Assembly (NCBI RefSeq): GCF_026676115.1
Contig: NZ_JAPONB010000011.1
Coordinates: forward strand, 1-64,000
Source of the DNA: Salinimicrobium sp. TH3
Lineage (GTDB): Bacteria; Bacteroidota; Bacteroidia; Flavobacteriales; Flavobacteriaceae
Reading direction: 5' to 3'
DNA: 64,000 nucleotides
Part shown: positions 49,836-57,824 of the stretch, one piece after another
Layout of the letters: every line of letters begins with the position of its first letter
Position numbering within the stretch: the stretch's first letter is position 1
The notes under the pieces: generated by a model
Databases searched by the model: none
What the model was told of the DNA's origin: nothing
Seen by the model: only the letters and a program-made list of their open reading frames with translations
Position numbers and translations under genes: made by a program

Positions 49836-50600
49836 TTAATGGTCCTCTACGATCGACTTTTTTGGCGGTATCTGGTAGAAAATTGACTTCTTCTTTAGAA
49901 TAATTTTATATCCAACCAATATTACAAGAGCAATTCCAGAACCCACTAATAGATATGTGAGGGTTTGGGTGCTTTCTCCAAAAAAAGCTATTATTAAGAT
50001 TAGAGGAGTTATGCCAGTAATGCTGGCAAAACTGAATTTCCAGTAGTCCATTTTAACCATTCCGCTAACCAGGCTCACCACATCATTTGACAGAAAAGGA
50101 TTTAGGCGTGTAATAAAAATTGCCCAAAAGCCATATTTCTCAAGAAAAACTGTAGTTCTGGCCTTTGCTGTACTTCCTAATAATTTTTCTACAGTAAATG
50201 ATCCAAAAACACGGCCTATGAAATAACCTGCCGATGAAGCACTATAAATAGCAAATAAAGCTAAAGCGCTGCCCCAGATTGGACCATACGCCACTATACA
50301 TACTATTAATAATAATGTGGTTGGTATTACCATTAGAAACATTTGGCCTATCATAGCCAGCACCAGGAGGATAGGACCGAACCAGCCAAAATTTGTGACC
50401 CAACTTCGAATATTCTCTTGGTCATTACTGATAAGTACTCGGATGGCGTCATGCATCCAAAGTTGGACTTCTGGAATAAAAACATAAGTCAGGAATGTGA
50501 GAGCTACAATAATAAAGGTGATAAAGAGAGAAAATTTGATTTTTGGTTTTAAAGGTTTAATGGCGTTTCTATTGCCGTCTGCCAAGACTTCTTCTGTCAT
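49836..50600 (-). CDS. TVP38/TMEM64 (VTT/DedA) family membrane protein
   Basis: A 254-residue protein with about six hydrophobic segments and a VTT-domain core: MIGQMFLMVIPTTLLLIVC, YGPIWGSALALFAIYSASSA, YFIGRVFGS and FWAIFITRLNPFLSNDVVSL, the last containing the conserved F-x-x-R-x-x-P. DedA/VTT proteins are scramblases or proton-coupled lipid transporters of the cytoplasmic membrane. Convergent with the preceding small gene. Confidence 0.88.
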   Translation of the reverse strand: MTEEVLADGNRNAIKPLKPKIKFSLFITFIIVALTFLTYVFIPEVQLWMHDAIRVLISNDQENIRSWVTNFGWFGPILLVLAMIGQMFLMVIPTTLLLIVCIVAYGPIWGSALALFAIYSASSAGYFIGRVFGSFTVEKLLGSTAKARTTVFLEKYGFWAIFITRLNPFLSNDVVSLVSGMVKMDYWKFSFASITGITPLILIIAFFGESTQTLTYLLVGSGIALVILVGYKIILKKKSIFYQIPPKKSIVEDH

Positions 50601-50641
50601 ATATTTCTTAATCTAAAAATTGATTCTATTGCGATAAAAGG

Positions 50642-50667
50642 AGGGCCAGTTAAAAAAAACTGGCCCT
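50642..50667 (-). terminator. Hairpin terminator
   Basis: Arms agggccagtt and aactggccct around an A-rich loop, 8 bp past the stop at 50675 of the minus-strand gene; on the minus strand the hairpin is followed by CCTTTTATCG. Confidence 0.65.
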
Positions 50668-50674
50668 GATAAGT

Positions 50675-51178
50675 TTAAGCGGCTGACTGCACCAGCGGCC
50701 GAAAGCTGATAGATTCTTTGATGATCTGGCTCCATTTTTCTGCATTTTTCATCTCATAATCCTGGTAATAGGTCATGTCACAGTCAAAGAAGCTGATGGT
50801 CTGAATATCTCCGTTATACATGGATAGCTCCAACTCCACCTTTTGAAGAACCTCCTCCTTCTTTTTGTCGATCTTGACAGTAGCGGTCTCATGAAGCAGC
50901 ACACTACTTTTAATAATTTTTAGATCTATGACCTGTACTACGATCTCCTCTCTTCTTCGTTGCACAAAAACAACCTTTTGACGGGTTTTGTCAATCCCGA
51001 TAATGTTGGAATTCCACCTGTCAACCCAGTCTAACTTAAGATCGAGCGCTATTGCTTCGCTGTTGAATCTGGATCTTAAGTCTTTTCTTTGCCTGGCTGC
51101 AGCGAGGACGAATAAAATATATGGTACGGCCACTGCGGCCACTACCGCAAAATGGACAATTAGGATGTCAATTTTCAT
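50675..51178 (-). CDS. Membrane-anchored protein of unknown function
   Basis: A 167-residue protein with one N-terminal hydrophobic segment (residues about 5-28, ILIVHFAVVAAVAVPYILFV) and a cytoplasmic mixed beta/alpha domain rich in charged residues (RQKVVFVQRRREEIVVQVI, KIDKKKEEVLQKVELELSM). The pattern of strands resembles PH- or GRAM-like domains but no family was recognised. Transcribed alone, with a hairpin terminator. Confidence 0.65.
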   Translation of the reverse strand: MKIDILIVHFAVVAAVAVPYILFVLAAARQRKDLRSRFNSEAIALDLKLDWVDRWNSNIIGIDKTRQKVVFVQRRREEIVVQVIDLKIIKSSVLLHETATVKIDKKKEEVLQKVELELSMYNGDIQTISFFDCDMTYYQDYEMKNAEKWSQIIKESISFRPLVQSAA

Positions 51179-51280
51179 GATGAATAATATTAAAATATAA
51201 AACTGATTTTTGGTCCCGCCATAGAACGGCTGTGGGAAAGACGAAAATTCTACTCCCTCAAAAAAGGGAGAAGGCCGGAA

Positions 51281-51613
51281 TCACAGAAAAACGTGGAAAG
51301 GGAAAATAATGGCCGGCGTGTCAAGTCCGGGGTCGATCTCTTTTGAACGCCTAATGTAATCGTTGTGAGAACGGGTTTCAAAAGAGCTCTGAAGTAAAAA
51401 ACTTTTGCTGCCTGTAAATGAATAGGCCTGAAAGACATTCGTCTTTAAGAATGGAACTGTTCCCTGGTAGAGATCAGCAGTTTCTTCTTCAAATTCAAAA
51501 TCGTTTACTGAAATTTCCTCCTTATCAAAAGGCAGGCTCTCATGTGAAAATGAAAAGGAGGTACCGCAGGAGAGCAGTAGAAGTAAAAACAAAAAGACCC
51601 CTTTGGCAGTCAT
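51281..51613 (-). CDS. Small exported protein of unknown function (divergent pair, left member)
   Basis: A 110-residue protein from ATG 51613 (MTAKGVFLFLLLLLSCGTSF); an in-frame ATG 24 nt upstream is less likely because it precedes the signal peptide. The mature part is acidic then basic, with no known domain, and ends TPAIIFPFHVFL. The last residues resemble those of the divergent gene at 51812-52135 (TAKIIYPFHSFP). About 200 bp of AT-rich DNA separates the two. Export is clear; function is not. Confidence 0.6.
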   Translation of the reverse strand: MTAKGVFLFLLLLLSCGTSFSFSHESLPFDKEEISVNDFEFEEETADLYQGTVPFLKTNVFQAYSFTGSKSFLLQSSFETRSHNDYIRRSKEIDPGLDTPAIIFPFHVFL

Positions 51614-51811
51614 TTTACTTTTGATATTACAGAGCAAATGTATATGATTAGTATGTTAAAATTACAAATATATTTCAGCTTATAAGTTAAATTTTACACC
51701 CCATTGCATAGCTTCGGTTTGACTACTAAAAATATTTTATTTCCAGAACATTTATTTTTTAAAAATTAACATTGCGTTGTACTACATTTACCCGAAATTC
51801 TACATACTAAA

Positions 51812-52135
51812 ATGATAAAAATTCTGTGCACTTTTTTCCTCCTGTTTTTAGGTCAGAGTGTGTTTCCATCTCCATTAGATTTTTCAGCTCTTTCTGAAGA
51901 CAATGAGACTTTATTATTATTAGAGAACCCTGAAGAAATAACTGCAGGCTCTGAAGTAGAATTTGCACCCGGGCTTTTAAAGGAACTTCACAAAACAAAG
52001 ATCATCCTAAAGGCAGATTTTAGCTCTTTTTGCGGGAGCTTCAGGCCGGCGGATAGGATTACAGTAAAGTTCCGGGAGAACATCCTCAATCTTAACACTG
52101 CCAAGATCATCTATCCTTTCCATTCCTTTCCGTAG
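51812..52135 (+). CDS. Small exported protein of unknown function (divergent pair, right member)
   Basis: A 107-residue protein with a signal peptide (MIKILCTFFLLFLGQSVFPS), an acidic region (SALSEDNETLLLLENPEEI) and a C-terminal half with basic and hydrophobic alternation ending IIYPFHSFP. No family recognised. Shares length, architecture and C-terminal motif with the divergent gene on the left, suggesting distant paralogy or a common partner. A small hairpin (cacgg-cttcg-ccgtg type) follows at about 52149-52165. Confidence 0.6.
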   Translation: MIKILCTFFLLFLGQSVFPSPLDFSALSEDNETLLLLENPEEITAGSEVEFAPGLLKELHKTKIILKADFSSFCGSFRPADRITVKFRENILNLNTAKIIYPFHSFP

Positions 52136-52220
52136 AAGATAATTTCCCACGGCTTCGCTCCGTGCCATAAAAGGCTGCGGAAGCATTTATTATTTTGATC
52201 CAGTTTAACCTTCTGCACTA

Positions 52221-53879
52221 ATGGATGTACAGAAAGAACAATGGGGCAGCCGTCTGGGCCTCATTCTCGCTATGGCGGGCAATTCAGTCGGGTTGGGTAA
52301 CTTTCTTCGGTTTCCTGTGCAGGCGGTACAGAACGGCGGGGGTACATTTATCATCCCCTACCTAATTTGTTTCGTGCTCATGGGGCTGCCGCTGCTTTGG
52401 ATTGAATGGTCTATGGGACGTTTTGGCGGTCGAAAAGGCCATCATTCCACGCCTTTTATACTTGGCTCTATGGGAAAAGCCAGCCTCTGGAAATATTTAG
52501 GTGTTTTTGGAATTTTCACAAACCTTGCGGTGGCAGCCTACTACTGCTACATCGAATCCTGGACCCTCTCCTATGCGCTGCACAGTTTGATGGGCACATT
52601 TCAAAGCCTATCTCAGTCTGAGATCGCACAATATTTCAACACATATGTCCTCATGGGCACTTCCTTCCTCGGAATTCCTAATGAAGCTCTCTTATTCTTC
52701 ATTATTTGTATCCTCATTAACACCTTTATCTTAAGCAAAGGCCTGTCGGGAATCGAAAAAGTGGCAAAAATTGGAATGCCGTTGCTTATTCTTTTTGGAA
52801 TCTTTCTGGCTATAAGAGGACTGACCTTAGGAACAAGTGCTGCTTCTGCGGAATTTCCTTTAGCCAATGCCTGGGACGGCCTGAATTATCTCTGGACCCC
52901 CGATTATTCTTCCTTGTACAGCCCCAAAGTGTGGTTGGCTGCTGCGGGGCAGATATTCTTTACGCTCTCGGTGGGAATGGGAACAATCCACTGCTATGCA
53001 GCTTATCTCGACAGTAAAGATGATATCGCCCTGAATTCCACCTCCGCCGGGTTCACCAATGAATTTGTGGAGGTTGTACTGGGAAGTCTTATTGTAATTC
53101 CCATTGCTGCCGGATATTTCGGGCTTGACTGGATCATTGAGAATATGAGCTTTGGAACCGCTTTTCAAACCATGCCTTTTCTATTTAATCAGTGGGGAAC
53201 TGTACTGGCGGCTTTTGCCGGCGTCTTCTGGTTCGGCCTGCTTTTCTTCGCCGGAATCACCTCTTCGCTGGCCATGGGCACGCCATGGATTGGTTTTATG
53301 CGGGATGAATTTGGGTGGAGCGCAAACAAAGGAGCCTATTCCTTCGGATTTTTGACCTTTTGTTTAGGTCTCCCCTGTATACTTTTTTATCAATACGGCT
53401 TTTTTGACCAGTACGATTATTGGGCGGGAACTGTATCGCTCGTGGTTTTTGCACTGGCGGAAACCATTTTGTTCTCCTGGTTCTTCGGAATTGGTCCCGG
53501 CTGGAAAGAGATCAATCTGGGTGCAGATATGAAGATCCCCGGTTTCTTTAAATGGGTGATTAAATACGTCACCCCTGCATTATTGGTAGCCGTATTTTTG
53601 GGAGCTCTTATTACGCCTGAGGGCAACCTGTGGATTGAGGCTTTTTCTTCACTGCTTAATGGCGGCATCTGGCCGCTGGATAACAACTCCCTGATCCTGC
53701 AGATCTCGAATACGAAACTGCTCGAGGACCTCGCGGGTTCAACAGATCCTGGAAGAACAGATTTTCTTGAAAAACAGATTTTTTACACGAACATGGCGAG
53801 ACTGGTACTTCTAAGTCTTTTCCTCTTCATTTGTACCCTTGTTTTTATAGCGCATAAAAAGAGAAAAAACGCGAACTAA
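52221..53879 (+). CDS. Sodium-dependent amino acid transporter (NSS/SNF family)
   Basis: A 552-residue transporter with about twelve membrane helices. The start of helix 1 (WGSRLGLILAMAGNSVGLGNFLRFP) carries the unwound Na+/substrate site of the LeuT fold, followed by NGGGTFIIPYLICFVLMGLP and the conserved E of WIEWSMGR. It couples uptake of an amino acid or related compound to Na+. The substrate cannot be told from sequence. It is followed after 1 bp by a 31-codon gene for a MetS-like single-helix subunit, as in NSS transporters of the MetP type. Confidence 0.92.
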   Translation: MDVQKEQWGSRLGLILAMAGNSVGLGNFLRFPVQAVQNGGGTFIIPYLICFVLMGLPLLWIEWSMGRFGGRKGHHSTPFILGSMGKASLWKYLGVFGIFTNLAVAAYYCYIESWTLSYALHSLMGTFQSLSQSEIAQYFNTYVLMGTSFLGIPNEALLFFIICILINTFILSKGLSGIEKVAKIGMPLLILFGIFLAIRGLTLGTSAASAEFPLANAWDGLNYLWTPDYSSLYSPKVWLAAAGQIFFTLSVGMGTIHCYAAYLDSKDDIALNSTSAGFTNEFVEVVLGSLIVIPIAAGYFGLDWIIENMSFGTAFQTMPFLFNQWGTVLAAFAGVFWFGLLFFAGITSSLAMGTPWIGFMRDEFGWSANKGAYSFGFLTFCLGLPCILFYQYGFFDQYDYWAGTVSLVVFALAETILFSWFFGIGPGWKEINLGADMKIPGFFKWVIKYVTPALLVAVFLGALITPEGNLWIEAFSSLLNGGIWPLDNNSLILQISNTKLLEDLAGSTDPGRTDFLEKQIFYTNMARLVLLSLFLFICTLVFIAHKKRKNAN

Positions 53880-53880
53880 T

Positions 53881-53976
53881 ATGGAAACTGAACCACTTAT
53901 CATCATGCTGCTTGTCCAGATTTCGGTCACCGCTTTTATGGTCTACTGTTTCTGGAAAGTATTGCGCAAAAAATAG
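53881..53976 (+). CDS. MetS-like small subunit of the NSS transporter
   Basis: A 31-residue protein (METEPLIIMLLVQISVTAFM, then VYCFWKVLRKK) made of one membrane helix with a short basic tail. Its ATG lies one base after the stop of the NSS transporter gene. In Corynebacterium the MetP transporter requires a similar single-helix partner, MetS. Assignment rests on position and topology, because such a short protein carries little sequence signal. Confidence 0.75.
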   Translation: METEPLIIMLLVQISVTAFMVYCFWKVLRKK

Positions 53977-54049
53977 AGGAGCCGGAGTATAAACTTCGAC
54001 CTCTGAACTTTAACTAAACCTGAATTCTAATACCTAAATTTAAAATATA

Positions 54050-55039
54050 ATGATCGTTTGGATTTTATTTTCTGTTGCAATTTTGTTCTTCCTGGCTTTA
54101 GATCTGGGAGTTTTTAACAGGGAAGCTCATGTCATAAAGACTAAGGGAGCTGCTATTTGGACCAGCATCTGGGTATCCCTCGCCCTTGGCTTTTCGGCAG
54201 TTATCTGGTGGCTTTTTGAAAATGGGCAGGTAGCCAACCCCACCGGTCTTACGCCGGGAGATGCTGTGTTAAAATATATCACCGGCTATCTCATTGAATT
54301 GTCTTTGAGTATAGATAACGTTTTTGTCATTGCCGTGATCTTTAGCTCCTTTAGCATTCCGAAAATGTATCAGCACCGGGTCTTGTTCTGGGGAATACTC
54401 GGCGCCATTGTTTTCAGGGCATTAATGATCGTGTTTGGGGTCGCTTTGATCAATAAGTTTGACTGGATCGTCTACGTCTTTGGTGTCTTCCTTATTTACA
54501 CTGCCTACAAAATGCTGAAGTCCGACAACACGCAGTTCAATCCAAAGAATTCCTGGATCTTTAAGAGAACCCGAAGATTTCTCCCGTTTACTGCCTTCTT
54601 CTATGGTGACAATTTCTTTATCCGCCGAATGGGTAAATTGATCGCAACGCCACTTTTTATGGCGCTGCTCATGGTAGAGTTGACAGATGTTCTTTTTGCA
54701 CTTGACAGCATCCCCGCTATTCTGGCCATTACGGCAGATCCATTCATTGTTTTCAGCTCAAACATCCTGGCGATTCTCGGCCTTAGGTCAATGTATTTCC
54801 TAATTTCACAAATGCTGGACAAGTTCCGCTTCATCAGTTACAGTCTAGTAGGTATCCTTACGTTCGTAGGTTTGAAGATGATCTTTTCGCACCACATCGA
54901 ACTACCGGAATGGTTATCCTTGATCGTTATAGCTGGAGCTCTTGCTTCGGGAATTTTAGCTTCTGTTCTAATGAAACCGAAAATGGATCACGAGGTGAAA
55001 GAGGAAGAACTTCATGAAAGTAGTTCCATTAGCAAATAA
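54050..55039 (+). CDS. TerC/Alx family integral membrane protein
   Basis: A 329-residue protein with about nine hydrophobic helices. TerC signatures are YLIELSLSIDNVFVIAVIF with the conserved acidic residue in the membrane, VLFWGILGAIVFRALMI, and MVELTDVLFALDSIPAILAI. Members of the family act in metal (often manganese) export or in tellurite resistance. The gene is single, with a 73-bp gap after the MetS-like gene, and no ter operon is near. Confidence 0.92.
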   Translation: MIVWILFSVAILFFLALDLGVFNREAHVIKTKGAAIWTSIWVSLALGFSAVIWWLFENGQVANPTGLTPGDAVLKYITGYLIELSLSIDNVFVIAVIFSSFSIPKMYQHRVLFWGILGAIVFRALMIVFGVALINKFDWIVYVFGVFLIYTAYKMLKSDNTQFNPKNSWIFKRTRRFLPFTAFFYGDNFFIRRMGKLIATPLFMALLMVELTDVLFALDSIPAILAITADPFIVFSSNILAILGLRSMYFLISQMLDKFRFISYSLVGILTFVGLKMIFSHHIELPEWLSLIVIAGALASGILASVLMKPKMDHEVKEEELHESSSISK

Positions 55040-55095
55040 TGCTCTGGGAAGAAGAGAAAGTTTTACTAACTTAGAAACAAATAAAAAAGATCAAT

Positions 55096-55350
55096 ATGAA
55101 ATGTCCGAATGATAATACCACCTTAGTGATGACTGATCGTAATGGTGTAGAAATTGATTATTGTCCAGAATGTCGGGGTGTCTGGCTGGACAGGGGAGAG
55201 TTGGATAAGATCATTGAACGATCCTCAGCTCCCATGCAAGGAAACCAGGCTTCACAGCACCGGAGTGATAGATATTCAAACCCAGGAGAAAATAAGTACC
55301 AAAAACCGCGAAAAAAAGATTCCTTTCTTGGGGACTTATTTGACTTCTAA
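55096..55350 (+). CDS. zf-TFIIB domain protein (copy 1)
   Basis: An 84-residue protein with a zinc-ribbon: Cys at MKCPNDN is incomplete as a pair, then CPECRGVWLDRGEL, followed by a disordered Ser/Gln/Arg-rich linker and a conserved end KKDSFLGDLFDF. The family (zf-TFIIB) is widespread in bacteria and of unknown function. Nearly identical to the gene at 62209-62463, with the same length, so the two are recent duplicates. Confidence 0.9.
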   Translation: MKCPNDNTTLVMTDRNGVEIDYCPECRGVWLDRGELDKIIERSSAPMQGNQASQHRSDRYSNPGENKYQKPRKKDSFLGDLFDF

Positions 55351-55422
55351 AAATTAGAACCTAATTGCTAATCTTTAATTCAAAAGCTATAATTTTTTGA
55401 ATAGATAATTCTTTTCCATTTA

Positions 55423-56388
55423 ATGATCATAACTGTTTTACTGTTAATCGCGGGTTTTGTAGCGCTCATTTTTGGCGCTTCCAAATTGGTAGACGCAGCT
55501 TCGAGTATAGCTGTCGGTATGGGTATTCCTAACATAGTTATTGGACTAACAATAGTAGCTTTTGGAACATCGGCGCCAGAACTTGTAGTAAATTTAATGG
55601 CGGCCGTTTCTGAAAATACGGAAATGGTTGTAGGGAATGTATTAGGGAGTAACATCTTTAATATTCTGGGCATACTTGGAATCTGTGCTTTAATCTCACC
55701 TCTTACTGTTAAATCCAGCACAACCTGGTTGGAAATACCTCTCAGCTTTTTAGCTGCGGTCTGTGTTCTATTTATAGGTGCGGATCAATATTTAAACGGG
55801 GCTTTAGACAACGTTCTTACAAGATCCGAAGGTCTGACATTGCTTCTTTTCTTTCTGATCTTTCTTGTCTACAATTTAACCGTGGCGAAAAGTGCAGGAA
55901 CAGATGAGAAAATAGAGACGAAAAAATACGGGACCTGGAAAGCAATCCTTTTTATTGTTCTTGGATTGGCAGGTCTTGTTTTAGGAGGGAAATTGATTGT
56001 CGACAGTGCAGTGGAGATCGCTCAAGTATTTGGAATGACTGAAAGAGTAATCGGTTTGACAATTGTGTCAATTGGTACTTCCCTTCCCGAACTTGCCACT
56101 TCCATTGTAGCAGTTCGTCGTAAAAATGTAGACATCGCTATTGGAAATGTTGTTGGCTCCAATATCTTTAATATATTCTTTATTCTTGGTCTTTCAACAG
56201 CAATAACTCCTGTTCCTCTTTCCTCCGGATCTTTCTTTGATATAATTGTATGTATAACTGCAAGCCTCCTACTTTTCATGTTCGTATTTACCGATAAAGG
56301 AAATAGAATTCAACGTTGGGAAGGAGGTGTTTTTTTGTTGTTGTATATTCTATACGTTGGTGAACTTATTACGGGAACTGCTCTATAA
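55423..56388 (+). CDS. Calcium/sodium antiporter (CaCA superfamily, YrbG type)
   Basis: A 321-residue transporter with ten hydrophobic helices arranged as two halves. Each half carries an alpha-repeat: FGTSAPELVVNLMAAV then GNVLGSNIFNILGI in the first, and IGTSLPELATSIVAVRR then GNVVGSNIFNIFFI in the second, with the paired acidic residues that bind Ca2+ and Na+. It exchanges Na+ for Ca2+ across the cytoplasmic membrane, most likely for Ca2+ export. It lies between zf-TFIIB copy 1 and a fragment of a small-multidrug-export gene. Confidence 0.93.
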   Translation: MIITVLLLIAGFVALIFGASKLVDAASSIAVGMGIPNIVIGLTIVAFGTSAPELVVNLMAAVSENTEMVVGNVLGSNIFNILGILGICALISPLTVKSSTTWLEIPLSFLAAVCVLFIGADQYLNGALDNVLTRSEGLTLLLFFLIFLVYNLTVAKSAGTDEKIETKKYGTWKAILFIVLGLAGLVLGGKLIVDSAVEIAQVFGMTERVIGLTIVSIGTSLPELATSIVAVRRKNVDIAIGNVVGSNIFNIFFILGLSTAITPVPLSSGSFFDIIVCITASLLLFMFVFTDKGNRIQRWEGGVFLLLYILYVGELITGTAL

Positions 56389-56469
56389 ACTCTTGAATTG
56401 TAAAAGGTCATTAAACATCTGTTGTGCATCAAAGAATTATCTGCATTTGCGGCATCAGGTAGATAGGAG

Positions 56470-56580
56470 ATGGTGGAGATAATCAATGGAATGCTGTGGG
56501 GTATATCTCCTTTCGGAGAGACAAACAAAGCCCTGCTGGAAATAAAAAATAAAAAAATCAGAGGAGCCAAGATGTTATGA
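56470..56580 (+). pseudogene. 5' fragment of a small-multidrug-export gene
   Basis: The first 17 codons (MVEIINGMLWGISPFGE) match the start of the intact gene at 62603-63061 (MVEIINGMLWSISPFGE) and the similarity extends about 35 bp upstream. Then homology stops, and the frame runs into unrelated residues and a stop at 56580. It is a truncated duplicate of that gene. Confidence 0.8.
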
Positions 56581-56864
56581 ATTAGCGATTAAGTGAGGGG
56601 CTTTTTATTACTAAAAAAACATCAGTTACTAACAAATCTAACACCTAAAAGAAGCTTTTGTACCAATGCTTATAAAGCAGATATGTGAATTATCAATATT
56701 ACGGCAATAAGCGGACATACTTCCGAAAAGGTTTTTTATTATTATATAAAAGCTTCACCAATGGAGCGGTTGGAAAAGATTTGAAGTATTCCTTTTGGAG
56801 AGGAGAATGTATGCTTCCGGAGATTCCGTTTTTTTGAACATTAAATAAATATATTTGGACCTTC
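56581..56864. other. Intergenic stretch without a gene
   Basis: About 280 bp, AT-rich, with no recognisable gene. It lies between the small-multidrug-export fragment and the convergent sbtA stop. The total non-coding span including the fragment is 56389-56864. Confidence 0.5.
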
Positions 56865-57824
56865 TTATATGACAATCAACGCCATGTAAAGCGGCATCCC
56901 AAAAGTAATATTGAAGGGAAACGTAACGGCCAGAGCCATGGGCAGGTAAAGACCGGGATTTGCTTTTGGTACTGCCATCTTCATTGCAGCCGGTACAGCA
57001 ATATATGAAGCACTGGCGGCCAAGATTGCCAGCATGAATCTATCTCCAACATTTCCTGTTACGAGACCGCTGGCCCAGGCAACAGTACATCCATTTATTA
57101 CCGGTATGATTATAGCAAAAAGAGTAGTGAACCAGCCGCTTTTTATAAAATCTGTCAATTTTCTTCCGCTAATGATACCCATATCCAGGAGAAAAATAGC
57201 CAGAAAGCCTTTAAAAATGTCATTAGTAAAAGGGGCTATTCCCTGAGCCTGACTTTCACTTGCTACAAAACCTATAATTAAACTTCCCAGGATCATCAGT
57301 ACACTTCCGTTAGAAAATGAATGACCTATTAAACTGGACATTTTAGGTGATGTATTATCTTTCTTTCCATACAGTGAAATAAGTGCCACGCCAACAATGA
57401 TTGCAGGAGCTTCCATTAAAGCCATTAATGCCACCATATGGCCACTGTAAGAAATCTGCTGAATTTCCAGAAAGGAAACGGCGGTGACAAAGGTTACGGC
57501 ACTAATTGAGCCATATGCGGCGGCGATGGCTCCAGAGTTTTCTGTACTTAATTTTCTTCTAAGGAGGTAAAAAGTATAAATTGGTATAACGAGGGCTGTA
57601 ATAACACCGAACAAAATTGTCCAAATGATTTCCATAGAGAATTGACTATGTGCCAATTCCCGGCCTCCATTAAATCCTATTGAAAATAAAAGGTAAAGAG
57701 ATATAAATTTCGATGAGCTTTTAGGAATCTCAAGATCACTTTTAAGCTGGACTGCCAGAATACCCATTACGAAGAAAAGTAAGGCTGGGCTTGTCAAATT
57801 TTCTATTAAAAGATTTAAATTCAT
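56865..57824 (-). CDS. sbtA: Sodium-dependent bicarbonate permease (SbtA family)
   Basis: A 319-residue membrane protein with about ten helices. SbtA-family features are the N-terminal LTSPALLFFVMGILAVQLKSDLEIP, the LYLLFSIGFNGGREL segment, AAAYGSISAVTFVTAVSFLE and the C-terminal GNVGDRFMLAILAASASYIA and VPAAMKMAVPKANPG. In cyanobacteria SbtA imports HCO3- with Na+. Flavobacterial homologues probably feed anaplerotic carboxylation. It is the last gene of a three-gene operon (unknown 96-residue protein, Sua5, SbtA) divergent from a LysR regulator, with a carbonic anhydrase nearby. No SbtB-like PII protein is seen. Confidence 0.88.
   Translation of the reverse strand: MNLNLLIENLTSPALLFFVMGILAVQLKSDLEIPKSSSKFISLYLLFSIGFNGGRELAHSQFSMEIIWTILFGVITALVIPIYTFYLLRRKLSTENSGAIAAAYGSISAVTFVTAVSFLEIQQISYSGHMVALMALMEAPAIIVGVALISLYGKKDNTSPKMSSLIGHSFSNGSVLMILGSLIIGFVASESQAQGIAPFTNDIFKGFLAIFLLDMGIISGRKLTDFIKSGWFTTLFAIIIPVINGCTVAWASGLVTGNVGDRFMLAILAASASYIAVPAAMKMAVPKANPGLYLPMALAVTFPFNITFGMPLYMALIVI

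Follow-up and report, generated by a model that had tools for sequence, protein, structure and literature searches.

In SecM, VemP, MifM and CutF, the ribosome is stalled near the C-terminus of a nascent chain until export pulls on that chain, and while it is stalled there it opens an RNA stem in which the start of the next gene is otherwise concealed (excerpts of PMC10987492 and PMC9973294). Substrates that monitor Sec and YidC are recognised, in the excerpted text of PMC10987492 (Fujiwara et al. 2024), by four properties: (i) an upstream ORF position relative to secA, secDF or yidC, (ii) an N-terminal secretion signal or membrane segment, (iii) a conserved C-terminus and (iv) a spacer of more than 30 residues. 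The same excerpts describe arrest peptides as usually narrow in distribution, and the NSP-stop and NAP-stop peptides of Bacteroidota as having a fixed last residue before the stop codon, which varies in the leaders described here.

We analysed two divergent small exported ORFs, A and B, in a 64,000-nucleotide stretch of DNA (hereafter, the window). Like SecM, MifM, VemP and the Sec/YidC monitoring substrates as excerpted in PMC10987492, each is a short ORF for an exported product that lies ahead of a membrane-related gene; further shared features are a conserved C-terminus, a spacer of more than 30 aa and RNA able to hide the next start. Properties (ii) to (iv) were all found in the leaders, whereas in place of secA, secDF or yidC they precede a PH-like partner gene or a gene of the SNF, SDF or CitMHS family. 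They also differ from SecM, MifM and VemP, to the extent that the excerpts of PMC10987492 describe these, in that their motif, IFPFHxF, is not RAPP-like, NSP-stop or NAP-stop, and in that one motif extends over several classes, against the usual narrow spread.

CutF of Rhodobacter capsulatus, an exported regulator that responds to copper as a nascent chain, resembles the leaders in being a nascent exported protein with a C-terminal stalling-like motif, a stem-loop over the next gene's start and targets that handle metals or ions, yet A and B differ from CutF as excerpted in PMC9973294 by lacking DUF2946, a CxxxC copper motif and a proline-rich end, and by a leader body that is not conserved. 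No match of A or B to DUF2946 appeared among Pfam families up to an E-value of 10, and neither sequence contains CxxxC or a PP near its C-terminus. Since the leader body is not conserved, ligand sensing is unlikely here, unlike in CutF. We propose that A and B are probably cis-acting exported leader peptides, in which a ribosome stalled by the C-terminal motif would switch on the next gene.

Two proposed exported leaders and their conserved C-terminus

Leader A is a 110-aa exported ORF on the minus strand (51281..51613; ATG at 51613, TGA at 51281-51283), made up of a signal peptide, a variable body and a conserved C-terminus, and leader B is a 107-aa exported ORF on the plus strand (51812..52135; stop TAG). 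The divergent arrangement of two exported small proteins with near-identical ends, noticed in the first-pass annotation, was confirmed: A ends in IIFPFHVFL, the final nine codons ahead of its stop (51284..51310, minus strand), and B in IIYPFHSFP. Neither has a recognised domain, as had also been noted, with no Pfam cut-off reached and no meaningful NCBIfam match. Direct comparison of A with B by BLASTP returned one 14-residue match, which is the C-terminal motif (E 0.001); the pair may possibly descend from an inverted duplication, as had been suggested, their likeness being limited to these 14 residues. Just upstream of A, on the same strand, lies the TAnnTTTG element TACATTTG (51635..51642), which we take to be a Bacteroidota -7 box. 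Such elements were found close to where the leader begins at 41 of 56 loci (e.g., L061, L064, L065 and the window), which makes the leader the probable first gene of its operon, with a short 5' end.

A loose DNA pattern for PFHxxF has two sites in the window, exactly those of A and B, with 0.41 expected. Because 8 of 100 shuffles also reached two sites, the pair alone is only mildly surprising. The window's own genome holds 15 matches to the motif pattern, compared with 8 for a reversed control pattern, and among those 15 only A, B and G000:C11:450815-451141 are ORFs of ≥30 aa that end in the motif. What takes the motif beyond chance is that relatives keep it. Relatives of A were found at E ≤1.8e-5 in 7 of the 11 other genomes of the genus and in A's own genome; those that are named belong to Salinimicrobium, and every aligned one ends in the motif. 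Conservation in orthologues, the point on which the first-pass annotation had made its claim depend, therefore holds for A. A search of 149 genomes for B yielded no convincing orthologue: the two best matches other than B itself, at E 0.006 and 0.007, were in frames unlikely to be genes.

The search for further small proteins with this motif, proposed in the same annotation, uncovered a whole leader family in several classes of the phylum, and added two features to those first noted: the gene at 50675-51178 (minus strand) as the regular companion of A, and a fixed spacing of the motif from the stop codon. The family consensus is a signal peptide, a fast-evolving body and the C-terminus [IL]I[FY]PFHxFx-stop. 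Of 58 operon loci, 55 carry the strict C-terminal motif; the set comes to 57 distinct loci (L122 and L163 share a contig) and overlaps the 30-locus partner set below. The three exceptions are a variant at L164, FPKHFFL at L194, which is the third partner locus of the window's own genome, and L167, where there is none. Among 30 partner loci from a profile search, 28 are preceded by a frame whose product closes with P[FY]H and three more residues, the other two showing a variant (L101) and no such frame (L106). Partner relatives also occur elsewhere in the phylum, in further families, orders and classes. Outside the window's family, 9 of the 14 partner loci read carry the strict motif upstream, two have near variants (YPFYFYF and FPHHHFW), two have diverged ends (L229 and L231) and one has none (L243).

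An independent search with the DNA motif pattern covered 397 genomes, for which match totals are to be read as "at least". Among the 150 matches listed, 62 sit 57-240 nt upstream of a same-strand partner, a count that leaves out 10 partner matches with E-values of 4e-4 or weaker, and no other close arrangement of motif and partner was found among these 150. The remaining 88 of the 150 matches listed have no detected partner adjoining and represent the background of the pattern. Inspection of 50 partnerless or neighbouring loci revealed real leaders with a divergent partner (L199, L200, L203, L204 and L209), leaders with a transporter (L127, identical to L215, and L201) and four short chance frames (L130, L143, L148 and L207).

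When 56 leaders were counted back from the C-terminal end, His was fourth in 56 of 56, Pro sixth and Phe fifth in 55 of 56 each, and the second residue from the end was aromatic or His in all 56; the final residue ahead of the stop differs (L, W, T, P, S, F, I or Y). The codons of the motif vary synonymously, Pro being encoded by CCT (22), CCC (16), CCG (9) and CCA (7), and His by CAT (44) and CAC (11). Across 16 pairs of relatives, with similar pS throughout, pN/pS was 0.47 in the body but 0.16 over the C-terminal 25 codons and 0.06 over the final 9. This drop towards the C-terminus, together with the synonymous variation, indicates that selection acts on the peptide. The "common recognition signal" of the first-pass annotation is upheld in kind, as a motif under strong protein-level selection, but we think that its reader would be the ribosome tunnel rather than another protein. 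A Kyte-Doolittle rule placed a hydrophobic, signal-peptide-like core close to the N-terminus of 55 of the 56 leaders, and the spacer behind this core is ≥93 aa in the 55 leaders scored.

The PH-like partner and neighbouring transporter genes

Each aligned relative of A is adjoined by a downstream same-strand gene of ~167-190 aa, and a profile of this partner, applied at E 0.01, matched in 123 of 397 genomes of the window's family. The partner gene in the window (50675..51178, minus strand) encodes a 167-aa protein with one N-terminal membrane helix and a PH-like domain. AlphaFold2, given the same number of sequences for both proteins, modelled the partner as a membrane helix, seven strands and a helix with a mean pLDDT of 83.5, compared with 53.3 for A. 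The fold is closest to PH domains by VIA (Z 9.2 for 4tyz, 8.9 for 3dcx and 8.8 for 3hsa). The partner is predicted to have the seven-stranded PH fold and C-terminal helix by which the superfamily is recognised, a match that is moderate because the best Foldseek hit had an E-value of 0.018 and none lay at ≤0.001. A scan of 38 partner members at the Pfam and NCBIfam cut-offs found no family shared among them. The bacterial PH-domain proteins 3dcx and 3hsa (DUF1696 family) share the PH-like fold predicted for the partner, which differs from them by its N-terminal membrane helix and by having no Pfam match. Positive residues behind the membrane helix suggest, at the level of sequence, that the PH-like domain is cytoplasmic, away from exported A. 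The partner ends in AA, VA, AS or SA in 44 of the 58 loci, which we presume to resemble an ssrA-type degron; this would fit a short-lived regulator.

The first-pass annotation had also suggested modelling A and B as a heterodimer, a docking pair that we set aside and that found no support: A is predicted to be disordered except for its signal-peptide helix, with pLDDT values of 45-52 in the motif region, and A-type genes accompany the downstream PH-like partner, not divergent B.

A transporter-type membrane protein gene lies directly behind the partner, on the same strand, in 22 of the 58 loci. These comprise a cluster of 12 (Na_Ca_ex in the representative), a cluster of 5 (CitMHS), three VTT genes including that of the window, one SDF and one CNNM, with families assigned by Pfam on representatives. 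The VTT-domain membrane protein gene of the window (49836..50600, minus strand), which we take to be DedA-type, is next behind the partner at a distance of 78 nt. NhaD, DctA and DedA are names that we presume for transporters here, the family assignments being those of Pfam. Our impression is that transporters may be enriched beside the operon, 22 of 58 being a raw count.

Three leaders without a partner directly precede transporter genes. Leader B lies 85 nt ahead of a gene of the sodium:neurotransmitter symporter family (SNF; 52221..53879, plus strand), its proposed target; L215 lies 91 nt ahead of an SDF symporter gene that starts with GTG, and L201 lies ~203 nt ahead of a CitMHS-type antiporter gene. 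With leaders standing before SDF, CitMHS and SNF genes, the target appears to change while the leader stays.

Other features of these neighbourhoods may be recorded here. Around A and B, positions 49836-57824 form a run of membrane transporters of the VTT, SNF, TerC, Na_Ca_ex and Sbt_1 families. A 215-aa frame at 47954-48601 matches only the front of pyridine nucleotide-disulphide oxidoreductases (Pyr_redox_2, 1-197 of 291), and this gene may therefore be cut short. At L180, the gene of an 1128-aa protein lies behind the leader-partner operon on the same strand; its start presumably resembles Cas9.

The constant pairing of A with the partner gene would also be expected if A were simply exported and used its C-terminal motif to dock onto the PH-like partner, or onto some general factor for export or assembly, with the RNA stem merely coupling translation of both genes. 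At the protein level, a variable body with a conserved docking tag at its C-terminus would look alike, and the membrane helix of the partner could serve as the contact site. We regard this account as unlikely, while giving it real weight. Leaders also stand alone before SNF, SDF and CitMHS genes; A has no predicted fold, its motif included; the PH-like domain is probably cytoplasmic and so apart from exported A; and a docking tag leaves the pairing between the leader stop and the next start, described below, unexplained.

Predicted pairing of the intergenic RNA

Leader A and the PH-like gene are separated by 102 nt of intergenic RNA (51179..51280, minus strand), in which an arm after the stop is predicted to pair with an arm before the start. 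Across the family, 104 nt is the median distance between the stop of the leader and the start of the partner (interquartile range 93-110, range 62-242). We predicted pairing between the 22 nt that begin with the stop codon and the last 45 nt before the start. The expected number of pairs in 55 loci was 8.17, compared with 3.83 in dinucleotide shuffles (Fisher 2e-8), whereas 72 control same-strand gene pairs from the same loci gave 3.85 compared with 4.10 in shuffles (Fisher 0.87; 3 pairs at p <0.05). Taken singly, 13 of the 55 loci had p <0.05 and 42 lay above, window A among them (p 0.39).

Arm swaps gave a similar picture. Native arms paired at -7.58 kcal/mol and swapped arms at -5.20 kcal/mol (n = 54; 0 of 100000 permutations as low), and the test was also run on 44 loci after similar arms had been dropped. 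In a second set, for which 34 loci were entered and 30 yielded a leader-partner pair, native arms reached -8.83 kcal/mol and swapped arms -5.90 kcal/mol with the same permutation result; after removal of similar arms (24 loci), the values were -8.35 and -5.67 kcal/mol. The duplex between A and its partner in the window (-11.4 kcal/mol) was the best of 54 possible partners.

The 85-nt RNA between leader B and SNF (52136..52220, plus strand) shows the same arm-to-arm pairing, at -9.8 kcal/mol against mismatched means of -5.3 and -6.3 kcal/mol, with modest ranks of 0.07 and 0.11; the arms between L201 and its CitMHS gene pair at -9.1 kcal/mol against -5.5 and -6.0 kcal/mol. A PFH frame upstream of SNF was absent at L248, a relative that is 69% identical and comes from another family, and at nine more distant SNF loci. 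With no orthologue, modest arm ranks and a leaderless nearest SNF relative, the evidence for B as a leader is thinner.

Masking the RNA as a ribosome at the leader stop would do left more of the start region unpaired (a fraction of 0.623, up from 0.469), compared with 0.485 for a mask placed further on; the gain at the stop was 0.154 in leaders and 0.008 in controls. When the intergenic RNA was folded alone, with no leader codons, the mask gain was 0.062 compared with 0.004 in controls (p 1e-4), so part of the effect comes from the codons for Phe and His. In this RNA, the start regions behind leaders were not more closed than those of controls (0.557 and 0.521 unpaired, respectively). RNAalifold found no common RNA structure in a MAFFT alignment of 8 loci, and an Rfam scan of 20 loci found no known RNA family, the only hit being one unrelated tRNA. 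As a class, the leaders are followed by RNA that is predicted to hide the downstream start and to be opened by a ribosome at the putative arrest site, with pairing that is not significant at every locus.

The stem sits exactly where a terminating ribosome would disturb it, and a terminating or re-initiating ribosome might open it by translational coupling without nascent-chain arrest, the motif just slowing termination. This reading is improbable: coupling by itself could do without a signal peptide and without conservation of ~25 motif residues, and the intergenic gaps, at ~100 nt, are long for translational coupling.

A model of leader action

A variable pro-region ahead of 25 conserved C-terminal residues, encoded by a small gene that adjoins a membrane protein gene, could also describe a secreted signal or antimicrobial peptide cut from the C-terminus, with the partner as its receptor or immunity protein. 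We hold this to be very unlikely, as the bulk of the partner is predicted to be cytoplasmic, no recurrent exporter or processing gene was found in the leader neighbourhoods, and the motif stays uniform from one class of the phylum to another, where a signal or toxin would usually have diversified. Conservation at the RNA level only, with TTYCAY (Phe-His codons) kept to pair with an ATGAAR partner start, has in its favour that TTTCAT is complementary to ATGAAA, the start of 20 of 55 partners, and that predicted pairing peaks at the partner start codon, but is scarcely credible given the synonymous variation in the Phe and His codons (TTC in 22 of 55, CAC in 11 of 55), the 31 of 55 partners that start otherwise than ATGAA plus a purine or the T/C runs would need (e.g., ATGGAA and ATGGAT), and the conservation of Pro, the second Phe and the upstream hydrophobic positions as well.

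We return to the leader peptide as a cis-acting regulator. The motif, with its selection and constant distance from the stop, the signal peptides, the order of the genes and the RNA pairing are computational findings; that the ribosome is arrested, that export relieves this arrest, and which physiological signal is sensed are our inferences. Each leader would combine a Sec-type signal peptide, a fast-evolving spacer and an arrest-like C-terminus, [IL]I[FY]PFHxFx-stop. During translation and export, its conserved last ~25 residues would occupy the ribosome tunnel. A chain that is not pulled on by export would hold the ribosome at or near the stop codon, where it would cover the RNA arm that would otherwise close over the start of the following gene, and that gene would be translated; under brisk export, the ribosome would depart, the stem would close and the next gene would stay low. 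The stall site itself is uncertain because the last residue varies, unlike that of the NSP-stop and NAP-stop peptides of Bacteroidota. In the window, the gene under the control of A would be that of the PH-like membrane protein, perhaps along with the VTT gene behind it, and B would control the SNF symporter gene.

As the leader body has no conserved ligand motif, we think that the leader would sense not a ligand but export itself (pulling force, and thus membrane energy or an ion gradient). A weak hint that ion gradients are what matters comes from the cation-coupled transporters often encoded behind it. More tentatively still, and as a possibility that we would not favour on present grounds, IFPFHxFx-stop may define an arrest-peptide class, present in several classes of one phylum, that gauges membrane ion gradients via Sec export and switches on the PH-like protein and neighbouring, mostly cation-coupled transporters, as a module that could be moved to a place ahead of new transporter genes, as B would have been ahead of SNF.

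Searches of an open-access library found no description of the motif or of the operon. We rate the principle as already known, and the motif, the targets and the breadth of distribution as new. Most exported arrest peptides known so far monitor copper or the Sec/YidC machinery, and their taxonomic distribution is patchy. If our reading is true, the leaders would represent a new arrest sequence, with a stop-anchored motif that extends across classes, a hypervariable body and RNA that hides the next start, and they would give a first handle on an uncharacterised family of PH-like membrane proteins. They would also place ion-transport genes under nascent-chain control in bacteria whose ribosomes, according to excerpts of PMC9976891, hardly use Shine-Dalgarno pairing.
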